Assembly: GCA_947629405.1 (NCBI GenBank) | Contig: CANRDL010000008.1 | Span: 1-39,724 of the forward strand | DNA length: 39,724 bases | Reading direction: 5' to 3' | Origin: an uncultured Bacilli bacterium | GTDB taxonomy: Bacteria; Bacillota_I; Bacilli_A; RF39; UBA660 | In this document: in pieces, positions 1 to 39,724 of the stretch | Layout of the letters: each line of letters opens with the position of its first letter | Numbering within the stretch: the stretch's first letter is position 1 | Position numbers and translations under genes: made by a program | The notes under the pieces: model-generated | Databases searched by the model: none | Seen by the model: the letters and a program-made list of their open reading frames with translations, nothing else | What the model was told of the DNA's origin: nothing

Positions 1-212
1 TTTCCTTTAAATTACGTGCATTTACCAAAATACACTACTCCCCTTTTAATATAGTGCACTTTTCTTAAAACTTAACGTATTTAATTTTGACTATTTTTTT
101 AAAATACCATTCAATATTTATAGGTCTTATAGAAGTTTCTGAGATTAAATCTTGATATTTTATTTATATATCTTCCTCTTCTATTAAAATTTATATATTT
201 TTTTATATTTTA

Positions 213-12033: not shown

Positions 12034-12064
12034 AAAAAAATCAACAATATTTGTTGATCTTTTT
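12034..12064. terminator. Bidirectional terminator between the TetR-family gene and the membrane-anchored protein
   Basis: ATCAACAA (12040-12047) and TTGTTGAT (12051-12058) form a perfect 8-bp stem with a TAT loop. An A run precedes it and a T run follows, so it serves both convergent genes. Confidence 0.85.
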
Positions 12065-13034
12065 AATTTGTTGGTTCAGTACTTATCCAAATATAATTAC
12101 CTGTTCCATCCTCTTTAAATGTATGTTTATATATTGTCGCTTGATCTTCATAATCTTTAAATACTTGAGATTTTATTGTTTTTTGAGTATCTACATCATA
12201 AGTATCAGAAAAATTACTTTTATATTCTTTATTTTGCGCAATCAATTTTGATTTATCTCCATACTTGTATATATTGGTTTTGCAAGTTAATTCACCATTA
12301 TCATCTACATCCTCAGATGTATATAAAATATATTTTTCATATAAGTATATTTTATCATCTTTTTTAGTTGCTTTAGTAAATTCACTTTGTTTGCCAATTT
12401 CAGCACAACCAGTATCTCCACCACCATAGTTGCAAAAATATATACCGTTTTTATAATTACAGATTCCTATATATTTATAAATATCTATATCATCATCAGT
12501 ATAATTTATATTACCAAATGCACTTTTTACAATTTCAGATATAGTTTCTTTTTTATAAGCATACCAATTATCTATACTAAATTTTAAATTTTTTACATAA
12601 CATTCATACCCTCTTTCACTTTGATGTAGATTTGGGGATTCTTCAATACAATCTGATTTATTTACAGTAGTATCAAGACTTCCATAAATTTCATAACCTT
12701 CAGGATTACTATAAATTAATTGTCCTACAGAACTTAGTATAGCATCATTAGAAATATCTTTGTAAGTAACTTTAGTACTTTGATAAGCATCTTTCCCTGA
12801 ATCATTATGAGGAATAATTAATTTTAATTTATCAATAGTTTTAGAATCATTTATATCAATTTCTTCTACTTTTTCTTTTTTAGTTTCTTTTTTTTCTTCT
12901 ACTTTCACTTCTTTTTTAAAATATTTATAAAAATATAAATCATAGGCTATATAACCTAAACTTCCAATAAGTAATATTGTAAGTATTACTATTGCAATTG
13001 TTTTACCTTTTCCACCCTTTTTTTCTTCTATCAT
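12063..13034 (-). CDS. Membrane-anchored protein of unknown function, paralogue A
   Basis: 323 residues, no family recognised. A short Lys-rich cytoplasmic start (MIEEKKGGKGK) is followed by one membrane helix at about 12-31 and a Lys/Glu-rich linker at about 38-58. An outer domain of about 265 residues follows, with several cysteines (for example in KSDCIEE, GYECYVK, GICNYKNG, CNYGGG) that could form disulfides. Its first 53 residues nearly equal those of the next gene, while the outer domain does not resemble it. It is the last gene of the minus-strand block that starts near 17 kb and lies 14 bases after paralogue B. AAAGTAGG lies before the ATG. Confidence 0.75.
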   Translation of the reverse strand: MIEEKKGGKGKTIAIVILTILLIGSLGYIAYDLYFYKYFKKEVKVEEKKETKKEKVEEIDINDSKTIDKLKLIIPHNDSGKDAYQSTKVTYKDISNDAILSSVGQLIYSNPEGYEIYGSLDTTVNKSDCIEESPNLHQSERGYECYVKNLKFSIDNWYAYKKETISEIVKSAFGNINYTDDDIDIYKYIGICNYKNGIYFCNYGGGDTGCAEIGKQSEFTKATKKDDKIYLYEKYILYTSEDVDDNGELTCKTNIYKYGDKSKLIAQNKEYKSNFSDTYDVDTQKTIKSQVFKDYEDQATIYKHTFKEDGTGNYIWISTEPTN

Positions 13035-13051
13035 AATTTACCTACTTTCTA
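12880..13051. repeat. 5' module copy A shared with 13805-13977
   Basis: About 170 bases covering the ribosome site, start codon and first 53 codons match the copy at 13805-13977 at about 96% by eye. Similarity ends abruptly where the outer domains begin. Confidence 0.9.
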
Positions 13052-13960
13052 CTTTTCAATTCTGACTGATTCTTTAAATATATAATCTCCTTCATCAGTT
13101 TTTTCAAATGTTATTTTATATTTAGAAAATTCTTGGTAATTATTTTCATTTAATTCAAAATCATCTGTATTTCCACTATACTCTTCTTTTTCTAAATTTT
13201 TATATATTTTTGAATCCAAATATGTTATTCCATTAGAATTTAAACCATCGTTAAAATAATTATATGCAACAGCAGCATAGACATATACATAGTTTTCTTT
13301 AACAGTTACCTTATAAACATATTTTTCTATATGATTAAATGCTGTATCTCCACAGGCACTATTAGTATAAAAATATTCATTAGTAACAACTGGAACATTT
13401 GGACAATTTTTACTAGAAGTTAATTCATTACTATAGTCAAAATCTGTTCCATAAACTTCTTTTATATTATTTTTTACATCACTAATTTTATATTTTCCTC
13501 CACCATCAACTGATAACTTCGCTTTTTGTATTTCGGTAAGTTCCGAATTAATTACTTTACATTCTCCTGAAGTATTACATTCACTTTCTAATTCTTCTGA
13601 TTTTAAATTTCCTGAATTAAATGCAGAATATAATTTAAAATCTTCAGGAATATCTTCTGATGTTACTTTTTCTTTATCAAAAATAATTCCACCTGAATAA
13701 GTATATTCGCGATCAAAAATATCAATTTTTGTTATCTGTTCAAAATTTCTAATTACCTGTCTTTTTATTGTATTATCTTTAAGTTCTACTTCTTTAGCTA
13801 CTTTTTTAGTTTCTTTCTTTTCTTCTACTTTCACTTCTTTTTTAAAATATTTATAAAAATATACATCGTAAGCTATGTAACCTAAACTTCCAATAAGTAA
13901 TATTGTAAGTATTACTATTGCAATTGTTTTACCTTTTCCACCTTTTTTTTCTTCTATCAT
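13049..13960 (-). CDS. Membrane-anchored protein of unknown function, paralogue B
   Basis: 303 residues with the same anchor as paralogue A: Lys-rich start, one membrane helix at about 12-31, and a Lys/Glu linker. The outer domain (about 60-303) is different in sequence but again holds spaced cysteines (ESECNTSGECK, SKNCPN, NSACGD). No domain is recognised. AAAGTTGG precedes the ATG. The two genes are adjacent and co-oriented, so they probably arose by tandem duplication with later replacement or fast change of the outer part. Confidence 0.75.
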   Translation of the reverse strand: MIEEKKGGKGKTIAIVILTILLIGSLGYIAYDVYFYKYFKKEVKVEEKKETKKVAKEVELKDNTIKRQVIRNFEQITKIDIFDREYTYSGGIIFDKEKVTSEDIPEDFKLYSAFNSGNLKSEELESECNTSGECKVINSELTEIQKAKLSVDGGGKYKISDVKNNIKEVYGTDFDYSNELTSSKNCPNVPVVTNEYFYTNSACGDTAFNHIEKYVYKVTVKENYVYVYAAVAYNYFNDGLNSNGITYLDSKIYKNLEKEEYSGNTDDFELNENNYQEFSKYKITFEKTDEGDYIFKESVRIEK

Positions 13961-21270: not shown

Positions 21271-21594
21271 TTATTTGTCAATCTTTTTATTATATTTTTT
21301 TACGGAATGTTCGGAAACAAAATAATCTAAAATATATGAAATAACAAATGCTAATATAAATGTTAAAACTAAAACAATAGTTATATTTAGCGCTTTACTT
21401 TTTGTTACTATAACTGTATCAATAGTTTCATTAAAAACAAGCCCTACTGAGTCAATTAGCAAAACTATACAAGAAAAAATTAATGACTCAACTAAGTATA
21501 CTTTGCATCTTCTTTTTTTAGAACTATTATCATTTTCCATTGGCAAATTTTTATTCCACATAGTTTTAGGAACTTTTATCATATTATTCTTCAT
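21271..21594 (-). CDS. Small two-helix membrane protein of unknown function
   Basis: 107 residues with a basic N-terminus (KKRRCK at about 26-31), membrane helices at about 32-52 and 70-92, and a charged tail. No family recognised. The ATG at 21594 overlaps the end of mutS by 11 bases, so it is probably translated from the mutS transcript; an alternative start is the ATG at 21582. Nothing links its function to mismatch repair except position. Confidence 0.55.
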   Translation of the reverse strand: MKNNMIKVPKTMWNKNLPMENDNSSKKRRCKVYLVESLIFSCIVLLIDSVGLVFNETIDTVIVTKSKALNITIVLVLTFILAFVISYILDYFVSEHSVKKYNKKIDK

Positions 21595-24118
21595 AATCTT
21601 TACTCTTTTCTTTTAATTTATATAAAATATTCATTGCTTCCATTGGCGTTATATTTAAGATATTTATAGCATCTATTTCTTTTTTTAATTCGTTTTCTTT
21701 TTTAGGAAAAGTAAATGAAATTTGTTCATTCATTTTTCGAGGTTTATTTTGTTCATATTTTTTTAAATGTTCACTAGCATTTTTTATAATACTATCAGTA
21801 AGCCCTGCTAAAGATGCAACTTGAATACCATAGCTTTTATCTGTTGGACCATCTTTTACTTTATGTAAAAAGGTTAAATTATCATTTTCAAAATTAGCAC
21901 ACACATGAACATTTTTAATAGTTGGATATTTTTTTGATAACGAGGTAAGTTCATGATAATGAGTTGAAAATAAAGTTTTACAATTAATTTTGGTATTGAC
22001 ATACTCAAGAATAGACTCTGCTAAACTCATTCCATCATATGTTGATGTTCCTCTTCCAAGTTCATCAAATAAAATTAAACTATTTTCTGTCGCTCCTTCT
22101 ATAGCATTTTTAGCCTCCAACATTTCAACCATAAAAGTTGATTCTCCGGAAACTAAATCATCAGAGGCGCCAATACGCGTATATATTTTATCAATTATTT
22201 TTAAATTACAATCTTCACATGGTACAAAAGAACCAATTTGAGCCATAATTATTATAATCGCTAGTTGGCGCATATAAGTTGATTTACCAGCCATATTAGG
22301 TCCTGTAATAAGTAAGGTTGATGTATCTTTATCCATTATACAATCATTGGCTACATATGATAAGTGAGTAACATTATCTACAACAGGATGTTTTCCCCCA
22401 ATAATATTAATAGTATTATCATTATTAAATTTAGGACGAACAAAACTGTTTTCAATAGCTACAGTTGCTAAAGATAAATAAGCATCAATTTGACTTAAAT
22501 TATCCGCTAAAGTTTTTAATTTAAATATTTCTTTTTTAACTTTTTCTTTTATTTCTAAAAATAATTCGTATTCTAATTTTATAATCTTTTCTTCACTATT
22601 TAAAACTAAAGCTTCTTTTTCTTTCAAAACAGGAGTTATGTATCTTTCGGATGTTGAAAGGGTCTGACGGCGTTCCCATCCCCATTCATCTTTTACTTCT
22701 TTTACTTGACCTTTAGAAATTTCAATATAATATCCAAAAACTTTATTAAATCCCACTTTTAAAGTTTTAATGCCTGTTTTGTTTCTTTCACTTTCTTCAA
22801 GGGTTGCAATAAAATCTTTTCCCCCACTTCTGATATTTTTAAGTTCATCTAATTCTTTATTGTATCCTTCTTTTATTAAGTAACCTTCTTTAATAGAAAC
22901 AGGAGGATTTTCATATATAGATTTTTCTAATAAATTATATATTTCTTTATTTTCATCTATATTTATATCGAAAGAAAGTTCATCAATTAATTTTTTAATC
23001 TCAGGAATATTTTTTAGAGAGTTTTTTAATTGTAGTAAGTCTTTAGCATTCAAAGAACCACATATAACTTTACCACATAATCTTTCAATATCATAAACTC
23101 CTTCTAAAGCATCTCTTAATTTTTCTCTAGTGATAAATTCATTAATTAATTTTTCGACATAGTCAAGTCTTTTATTAATTTTATTTATATCAAGTAAAGG
23201 ATGGAGTAACATATCTTTTAATTTTCTTCTACCCATAGCAGTTTTACATTTATCTAGAAGCCAAATTAAAGAAAAGTTTCTTTCTTTTAGACGAATTGTT
23301 TCAAATAATTCTAAATTTCTTATTGTATGAATATCCATATATAATGTTTCTTCATTATTTAAGATATTGACATGATCGATATGACTGACATCTTTAAGTT
23401 CCTTTTTTACTAAATAATAAAATAAGTGTCTTATACCCATTTTTATTCTTTCATCAGTTACAGAATTAATTAAATCCCTATATTCATTTTGAAGCATTTC
23501 ATTAGATTCGGTAACTAAAATGCCATAATTATTTTCTAAAGTTGATATTAATTTTAAAGGAAAATTATCAATTGTAATTATTTCTCTTATTCCTAATTTT
23601 AATATTTCATTTAATAGTTTACTGTCATCTTTTTCAATATATAAAGCATTTAATACTCCCGTAGAAATATCAGCAAAAGATAGTAAATAACAATCTTCAA
23701 AGGAAATAACTCCCCCAATATAACAATTAGTAGCATTATCTAAATATTCCTCATCAACAAATGTTGATTTAGATACGACATCAACTACTCCTCTTTTTAC
23801 TGTACCCTTAACATCTTTAGGGTCTTCTAATTGTTCAGCAATAGCTACTTTATAGCCTTTTTCTACTAATGTTTTTATATAAGGTTTAACTGAATGATGG
23901 GGAACCCCACACATGGGAACTCTTTCAGAAAGTCCCGCATTTTTACCTGTTAAAGTAAGTTCTAATTCGCGGGCAGCAATTTTTCCATCTTCAAAAAATA
24001 ATTCATAAAAATCTCCCAAACGATAAAATAATAGTTCATCTTCATGTTTATCTTTAATTTCCATATATTGTTTCATCATAGGAGATAATTTTTCTCTATC
24101 TACTTCATTTCGATTCAT
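21584..24118 (-). CDS. mutS: DNA mismatch repair protein MutS
   Basis: 844 residues, full length. Recognises mismatches and small loops and recruits MutL. The mismatch-binding N-terminal domain has FYELFFEDG (a Phe-x-Glu-like contact region lies within YRLGDFYELF). The ATPase has Walker A GPNMAGKST near 610 and DELGRGTST later. QISFTF near the C-terminus looks like a sliding-clamp binding motif. GGTGG precedes the ATG. Divergent from lexA with 179 bases between. mutL is not in the window. Confidence 0.98.
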   Translation of the reverse strand: MNRNEVDREKLSPMMKQYMEIKDKHEDELLFYRLGDFYELFFEDGKIAARELELTLTGKNAGLSERVPMCGVPHHSVKPYIKTLVEKGYKVAIAEQLEDPKDVKGTVKRGVVDVVSKSTFVDEEYLDNATNCYIGGVISFEDCYLLSFADISTGVLNALYIEKDDSKLLNEILKLGIREIITIDNFPLKLISTLENNYGILVTESNEMLQNEYRDLINSVTDERIKMGIRHLFYYLVKKELKDVSHIDHVNILNNEETLYMDIHTIRNLELFETIRLKERNFSLIWLLDKCKTAMGRRKLKDMLLHPLLDINKINKRLDYVEKLINEFITREKLRDALEGVYDIERLCGKVICGSLNAKDLLQLKNSLKNIPEIKKLIDELSFDINIDENKEIYNLLEKSIYENPPVSIKEGYLIKEGYNKELDELKNIRSGGKDFIATLEESERNKTGIKTLKVGFNKVFGYYIEISKGQVKEVKDEWGWERRQTLSTSERYITPVLKEKEALVLNSEEKIIKLEYELFLEIKEKVKKEIFKLKTLADNLSQIDAYLSLATVAIENSFVRPKFNNDNTINIIGGKHPVVDNVTHLSYVANDCIMDKDTSTLLITGPNMAGKSTYMRQLAIIIIMAQIGSFVPCEDCNLKIIDKIYTRIGASDDLVSGESTFMVEMLEAKNAIEGATENSLILFDELGRGTSTYDGMSLAESILEYVNTKINCKTLFSTHYHELTSLSKKYPTIKNVHVCANFENDNLTFLHKVKDGPTDKSYGIQVASLAGLTDSIIKNASEHLKKYEQNKPRKMNEQISFTFPKKENELKKEIDAINILNITPMEAMNILYKLKEKSKDYEE

Positions 24119-38250: not shown

Positions 38251-39543
38251 TTAGTAAGTATATTTAAATTTAATATGATACTTTTTAGCATAATTAGTTA
38301 ATTGACCATATCTATTAAAATGGACATTTATATCGTATTCTATATCTTCTAACTCTTCATAACTAAAATCAATATCAATAGTAAATTTTGGCCCTTCATT
38401 AAGAATTATTCCATACATCGGAGGAGAATCAACAGTGCAAAAATAATACCAATCTTTATTATTTTCATGAAGAAAATATTCACCATCAAGATAACTCCAA
38501 GCTATAATAAAATTTTTAAATGATTTTACACCCTTTACTTTTGAATAAGGTACATAAATAGTTATAGTTGAATTATTTTCATATCCTCCATGTTTTCCAT
38601 TTACAAAAAGTATTTTATTTACATATACTTTATCATCATTTCGATCGGGGTATTCAAATCTAACTGAAGTAATAATTCCATTTTTAAAAATTTTATTTAA
38701 ATCTGGTGGAATATCACTATTATCTTTTATTATATTTTTTATAGTATAATCTCTTATATATGTTCCATCTTCAGCATATACTTTTAATTTACGATTTACT
38801 TCTATTTTTGAATTAAATTCAGGCATATCAAATACTGCATCTATTATTTTTCCATTATTAGTTAAATTTCCTATTAATGTAATGTTTCTGGCAGAAGTAT
38901 TTTGAACATATAAATCATAATTTTCTACATTTTTATTAAATGTAGGTTTAAGAGTACCATATGAAGATGTTAAATCAGTTAATTCAGTAGTTTCTGAAAG
39001 TGGAGAATATTTTATATTTTCATATCCTTCTTCTAATTTAGGTTTTGAATACTCATATCCTGAATCCAATTTAATATGCCAAGGACCATTGTTTGGATCT
39101 ACTGAAAGTGGTTTTGAAATACTATAAGTAGTTACTAAGCGGATTTTTTTAGTTTCATTTGGTTTTATTATTCCTACTGGATGAGAATATTCTTCACTTG
39201 GTATTTTATAATATATTTGGCCAAAATGACCAGATGCTTTATCTTTCCAATTTAAATTATATGAATATGTATTTGTATTGGAATAATTATGTATTGTAAA
39301 TTCCATTTGTTGATAATTTGTATTTTCTACATTTTCACTTTTTATTATTTTAACATCAGATATACTTGAATTAAAATTTCCTACTTCTATTTCTCCTGTT
39401 TTATTTATAAAGTATGAATATGTTATAAAGATAAAAAAAGTAAGGATTACTAAGATTATACATGAGCTTATAAAGGTATTTTTTATCTTTTCTTTTTGGC
39501 TAAGATACTTTTTTAATTCTACTTTTGTATTATTCTTTTTCAT
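38251..39543 (-). CDS. Surface protein with TasA/camelysin-like start and cadherin-like beta-sandwich
   Basis: 430 residues. A Lys-rich cytoplasmic tail of about 22 residues is followed by one membrane helix at about 23-43 and YSYFINKTGEIEVGNFN, a pattern like the N-terminus of TasA/camelysin-type proteins. A cadherin-like beta-sandwich (PF12733 type) lies at about 190-270: LTSSYGTLKPTFNKNVENY at its start and VYAEDGTYIRDYTI at its end. A further beta-rich outer part runs to the C-terminus. No sorting signal is seen. Probably displayed on the cell surface. Its promoter has an eight-G tract between -35 and -10, so its expression may switch on and off. Confidence 0.75.
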   Translation of the reverse strand: MKKNNTKVELKKYLSQKEKIKNTFISSCIILVILTFFIFITYSYFINKTGEIEVGNFNSSISDVKIIKSENVENTNYQQMEFTIHNYSNTNTYSYNLNWKDKASGHFGQIYYKIPSEEYSHPVGIIKPNETKKIRLVTTYSISKPLSVDPNNGPWHIKLDSGYEYSKPKLEEGYENIKYSPLSETTELTDLTSSYGTLKPTFNKNVENYDLYVQNTSARNITLIGNLTNNGKIIDAVFDMPEFNSKIEVNRKLKVYAEDGTYIRDYTIKNIIKDNSDIPPDLNKIFKNGIITSVRFEYPDRNDDKVYVNKILFVNGKHGGYENNSTITIYVPYSKVKGVKSFKNFIIAWSYLDGEYFLHENNKDWYYFCTVDSPPMYGIILNEGPKFTIDIDFSYEELEDIEYDINVHFNRYGQLTNYAKKYHIKFKYTY

Positions 39544-39567
39544 AGTATTTCCTTACTTTCTAAGGAA

Positions 39568-39605
39568 ATTATATAATAGACCCCCCCCTGTCAAGCTTTT
39601 GTGGA
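39568..39605 (-). promoter_or_regulatory. Promoter with eight-G spacer tract (candidate phase-variable)
   Basis: On the minus strand TTGACA (39594-39589) is followed immediately by GGGGGGGG (39588-39581) and then TCTATTA and TATAAT (39573-39568). The spacer is 15 bases, two short of the optimum of 17. Upstream CACAAAAG and downstream TTTCCTTAG match the promoter at 17021-17062, which has only GGGG and a 19-base spacer. Confidence 0.8.
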
Positions 39606-39663
39606 AAAATTTGCCATTTTTTGTTGAATTCAAATTTTTAAGAAAACCGTAAATTATTTACTT

Positions 39664-39693
39664 AACGTCTCGTTTTTTATCTTTCGGGACGTT
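39664..39693 (+). other. GC-richer hairpin at the window edge
   Basis: AACGTCTCG (39664-39672) and CGGGACGTT (39685-39693) pair fully on the plus strand with one G-U pair, around a 12-base loop. No T run follows. It may belong to an RNA or element that continues beyond the window. Nearby GTAAATTATTTAC (39649-39661) is a second palindrome. Confidence 0.4.
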
Positions 39694-39724
39694 ACCTCTT
39701 AACTAACACGGGGAATATAAAATA

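Follow-up and report, generated by a model that had tools for sequence, protein, structure and literature searches.

Eight consecutive G lie in the spacer of a promoter just upstream of a gene for a putative surface protein of an uncultured gut bacterium of the Bacilli, and the locus raises the question of whether such a tract switches its gene by slippage or belongs to a promoter type with another role. The window (the whole stretch of DNA that was analysed, 39,724 nucleotides) comprises positions 1 to 39,724 of contig CANRDL010000008.1 of the assembly GCA_947629405.1.

The window promoter and its gene

On the minus strand, the order of elements is TTTTTCCACAAAAGC TTGACA GGGGGGGG TCTATTA TATAAT TTCCTTAGAAAGTAAGGAAATACT ATG (Table 1). 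The initial annotation of this promoter, i.e. TTGACA, eight G, TCTATTA and TATAAT with a 15-base spacer, was borne out by direct reading, and so were the perfect sigma-A hexamers with the G tract inside the spacer; it was also correct in calling the tract the longest G/C run of the window, the runners-up being seven runs of five. An Rfam search of the window gave no match. A leader hairpin (TTTCCTTAGAAAGTAAGGAAA) masking the Shine-Dalgarno sequence was considered as the main feature and rejected, because transcription probably starts about 7 bases past the -10, inside the 5' arm of the hairpin, and because the hairpin is absent from other members of the promoter family. Elsewhere in the window (17051-17021, minus strand), TTGACAGAGTGGGGTATTGACATTGTATAAT precedes a small membrane protein and has a G-rich spacer with no homopolymer.

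Table 1. Features of the window
Feature	Position	Strand	Remarks
DnaA-box-like element TTTTCCACA (TTWTNMACA)	39600..39608	minus	
-35 TTGACA	39594-39589	minus	direct reading
G8 tract	39588-39581	minus	C8 at 39581-39588 on plus; direct reading
Spacer remainder (tail) TCTATTA	39580-39574	minus	direct reading
Whole spacer, 15 bases	39574..39588	minus	G8 + TCTATTA
-10 TATAAT	39573-39568	minus	direct reading
Leader, -10 to ATG	39544..39567	minus	24 bases; start codon at 39543
Shine-Dalgarno AAGGA	39554-39550	minus	within palindrome TTTCCTTA-GAAAG-TAAGGAAA
ORF, 430 aa	39543-38251	minus	N-terminal anchor helix, then beta-rich extracellular part (predicted)
MutS (mismatch repair)	21584..24118	minus	assigned by sequence reading, without family search
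End of multi-copy inserted element, 77 bases	39648..39724		in common with the ends of contigs C1 and C14

The ORF downstream has a single hydrophobic anchor, located N-terminally, and gave no Pfam match at E<=0.01; its structure was predicted as a helix (2-48) followed by strands, at low confidence (pLDDT 55). Contig C1 encodes two paralogs (421 and 431 aa), both with the same promoter upstream; they share 56% and 46% identity with the window protein, and the first 55 residues are nearly identical. The product had been described as a membrane-anchored surface protein; the N-terminal helix supports the anchor, and the surface location, which is drawn from the sequence, agrees with the paralogs. 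Two tandem paralogs at 12063-13960 (minus strand) of the window share their N-terminal anchor (MIEEKKGGKGKTIAIVILTILLIGSLGYIAYD) exactly, diverge in their ectodomains, and lack a G-tract promoter.

A promoter family in the genome

The tract had been read as one single switch, which did not hold: 19 near-identical promoters were found genome-wide, and a single-locus tract was rejected on this copy number. The 1.13 Mb genome contains 21 runs of at least seven G, and 19 of the 21 are in promoter position, i.e. TTGAC[A/T]-G7..9-...-TATAAT, with tracts of G8 (15 promoters), G9 (three) and G7 (one) and with spacers of 15 to 19 bases; four of the 19 have the TTGACT-G8/9-...-TATAAT form. One of the two remaining runs belongs to a looser version, TTGACGAT-G9, and the other is intragenic. 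The pattern TTGACAGGGGGG has 15 copies genome-wide, against none for the reversed control pattern, and all matches to TTGACAGGG...TATAAT in this genome have at least seven G, with none of three to six G. The module comprises a TTWTNMACA box, 5 bases, TTGAC[A/T], G8 (7-9), 7-11 bases and TATAAT, usually followed by a leader of about 24 bases; the tail of the spacer after the tract is of 7, 8, 9 or 11 bases, depending on the gene. This genus-specific promoter module, found mostly before surface-protein genes, is real.

Members of the family differ in tract length. A promoter on contig C19 has the same tail and leader start as the window promoter with G9 and a 16-base spacer, the state that the initial annotation had foreseen; the gene of this promoter lies past the contig end. 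Contig C20 has two tandem paralogs with G7 and G8, respectively, the upstream 100 bases of which are 93% identical. A looser relative of the promoter, TTGACGAT-G9-ACATGTTACACT (contig C1:128-136, locus L207), precedes an 82-aa protein, which has no Pfam match and which we take to be YukD/EsaB-like. A phage origin of the module was also considered and rejected, the module pattern having no match among viral contigs.

A simple hydropathy rule predicts an exported or anchored product, with an N-terminal anchor or a signal peptide, for 15 of the 18 scoreable downstream genes; among background ORFs the count is 32 of 131 (p=2e-6). The products comprise the window protein and its paralogs (three of that type) and signal-peptide proteins ending in NPNTSD, NPKTG or IPNTG plus a membrane helix and lysines, i.e. 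sortase-type tails; three sortase genes were found in the genome. Several of the signal-peptide products contain short repeated stretches without Pfam match, which to our eye presumably form a beta-helix. Further products are a glycosyltransferase-like protein and, by Pfam, an SPFH protein and a ClpX-like ATPase.

Inserted element at the contig ends

Many of the G-tract promoters are at contig ends, because a multi-copy element is inserted upstream of them. The element is insertion-sequence-like, and its body is absent from the assembly; its ends are found at both sides of the window (1-77, and as in Table 1) and at the contig ends C1, C4, C14, C16, C20, C26, C29 and C33. Six G-tract promoters have an element end 32-53 bases before their -35; in the window the distance is 53 bases, and the tie to the promoter is one of position only. 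Four insertions can be matched up (C8/C26, C16/C14, C20/C29 and C33/C4) through target words of 14-16 bases that are repeated. The element's placement suggests that it prefers the region upstream of the promoter module.

The sister species and other gut lineages

The other genome of the genus that was compared, the sister species (G001, Lapin-016__bin23; uncultured Bacilli bacterium, rabbit gut), contains 14 such promoters; their -35 is TTGACT in 13 cases and TTGACA in one, and there are 12 tracts of G8, one of G9 and one of G5. The promoter of the ClpX-like ortholog has G8 and a spacer of 17 in the focal genome, as against G5 and a spacer of 13 in the sister species. The initial annotation had proposed to compare tract lengths in related genomes; they do differ between related copies (G5, G7 and G9 in paralogs and one ortholog), and a uniform length of exactly eight G, which would have spoken against a switch, is nearly but not fully what was found (15 of 19 here, 12 of 14 in the sister species; 27 of 33 over the two genomes). 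The number of G is not correlated with tail length among the genus promoters (Spearman -0.14, p=0.45), hence the tract is not tuned to a total spacer of 17. The TTWTNMACA box is present at a fixed distance upstream of the -35 in 33 of 33 genus promoters; it differs from the DnaA box TTWTNCACA by A for C at position 6 in about 40% of the members, whereas some members match exactly (TTATCCACA).

A family-wide module was rejected: the TTGACA form was found in one of 144 genera sampled of the family, the focal genus, and the TTGACT form in four of 144. Another genus of the family (G080) has G8, G8 and G9 with one identical tail, and among further genera there are one G9 before a NPNTSD surface gene and one G12. 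Unrelated gut bacteria have the same architecture, with 8-12 G, before surface genes.

A broad scan for TTGACA-G>=7-...-TATAAT in one genome per species (84,980 species) yielded 105 stretches; these include chance matches and ordinary G-rich spacers, mainly at G7, and were used for the trend alone. When each genome is counted once per length class, the share of exported products grows with the tract, from 7/33 (21%) at G7 and 5/13 (38%) at G8 to 16/30 (53%) at G>=9, with a background of 13%. Copies that differ by one G between near-identical flanks were found in Lapin-018__bin38 (G10/G11; 97/101 and 79/80) and in Lapin-027__bin54 (G9/G10), the flank identity being about 96-99%; such one-G differences would fit the trace expected from slippage. 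In Phascolarctobacterium (loci L153, L154, L167, L168 and L174), spacer tracts of G7-G9 lie next to a short inverted repeat that directly precedes the -35; the genes behind these tracts encode a sugar transferase and large exported proteins of repetitive sequence, and copies differ by one G.

Slippage and alternative explanations

Judged from the sequences, slipped-strand phase variation at the G-tract promoters is plausible. The phase-switch reading of the initial annotation gains from the surface-type gene, the tract between the -35 and -10, and the lengths that differ between related copies; against it stand the near-invariance of G8, the presence of mismatch repair genes, and a G number that does not make up for differing tail lengths. 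Since MutL (contig C18, via PF08676) is encoded in addition to MutS, slippage at G8 is expected to be slower. In Neisseria phasome work, poly-G tracts of at least nine were taken as phase-variable (PMC5953494), and the G8 of the window is below this cut-off for frequent slippage; nine G serves as a practical limit rather than a strict rule, since the tracts of Treponema pallidum include G8 (PMC7864442).

The best explanation, to which we would give slightly better than an even chance, sees in the module a sigma-A contingency promoter, at which slippage would vary single surface genes. Slipped-strand mispairing at the tract would add or remove one base, and would thus bring the spacer closer to 17 or take it further off, changing the transcription of one surface gene at a time. 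Tails of 7, 8, 9 and 11 bases with the usual G8 would set spacers of 15, 16, 17 and 19 at different genes, and because tail length differs between genes, an identical slip could have opposite effects, with transcription going up at one gene and down at another. At its spacer of 15, the window gene would be weakly transcribed, and G9-G10 would be stronger. With G8 and mismatch repair genes, switching would probably be slow, and the family may be one of low-rate switches.

A possible but rather unlikely alternative is a fixed operator, in which G8 and the TTWTNMACA box are the candidate site of one regulator (DnaA or another) for joint control of the surface genes, and the tract seldom slips. 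The prevalence of G8 in the genus argues for it, as do the invariant distance from box to -35 in every member, the independence of G number from tail length, and a search of the focal genome for CCACAAAA...TATAAT, in which 12 of 13 matches have a G tract and the exception lacks a -35; we know of no surface regulon of this kind under DnaA. However, tracts of 7, 9 and 5 exist, the tract differs between near-identical copies in other lineages, and other genera have TTGACW-G8..12-TATAAT before surface genes without the box, which favours a tract that acts on its own. A combination of both, with about 19 promoters forming a contingency regulon in which slipping G8 tracts work jointly with a DnaA-box-like operator and preset tails give opposite up and down responses, is a decidedly improbable reading; if true, surface variation would be combinatorial and would depend on one shared regulator, which might be DnaA and would then link it to replication.

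The module might instead be an inherited cassette that was copied with duplicated surface genes and kept by descent or gene conversion, the G-rich spacer being merely tolerated. Tandem duplicated clusters with similar upstream DNA (five genes on C20, two on C1, two on C29) are in line with this, but unrelated families (ClpX-like, SPFH, glycosyltransferase, anchored and sortase-type proteins) have the common core amid differing surrounding DNA, a 20%-G+C-rich homopolymer has been retained in two species despite the very A+T-rich genome, and the architecture recurs in other genera; we regard this explanation as unlikely. Homopolymers are error-prone in short-read assembly and the window tract lies just 136 bases from the contig end, and individual sites could still carry a wrong G count; for the family as a whole, an isolated or misassembled homopolymer was rejected by copy number (15 exact copies against none for the control pattern), the same family is found in the assembly of a second species, and the contig ends are accounted for by the inserted repeat, so that such an artefact is extremely improbable.

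Comparison with known systems

Phase variation in gut Firmicutes has mostly been discussed as DNA inversion. About 19 mostly surface-related loci with a common G-tract promoter in a small uncultured Bacilli genome, together with a surface share that rises with tract length across genomes, suggest that promoter-spacer homopolymers are an overlooked route of surface variation in gut commensals. A spacer homopolymer before a tandem surface-gene family is known from vlp of Mycoplasma hyorhinis, and tandem surface genes are found here as well; the vlp tract is poly-A, its products are lipoproteins, and Mollicutes lack MutS.

In T. pallidum, several surface genes (tp0126, tprE/G/J/L) have poly-G tracts of 7-11, and the tract of tp0126, an outer-membrane protein gene, lies between the -35 and -10 and gives best expression at a 17-base spacer (PMC7864442). 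The position in the spacer and the several surface genes per genome are thus alike; however, there is no single conserved module with upstream box in T. pallidum, as against about 19 loci of one module here, and lengths vary within an isolate and the length effect was measured by reporter there, whereas the tract here is nearly always G8 and is known from sequence. For porA of N. meningitidis, which is cited in PMC7864442, a promoter-spacer poly-G is likewise reported, with transcription that drops when the spacer leaves 17; it is a single locus with a longer tract, and was shown experimentally. Bifidobacterium breve is, likewise, a gut commensal with a G tract and sortase-linked surface structures, and slippage of G tracts was found by deep sequencing for its sortase-dependent pili; its studied tracts, unlike those here, are G10-G11 within coding sequence (frame switching), while the paper also points to other G tracts, which lie in promoter spacers (PMC9187656). 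DnaA-regulated promoters (PMC8203912) offer a parallel to the 9-mer that resembles a DnaA box and closely precedes the -35 here, a parallel by likeness of sequence. Different from the known systems is one module common to about 19 loci and several gene families, with preset tails and an upstream box.
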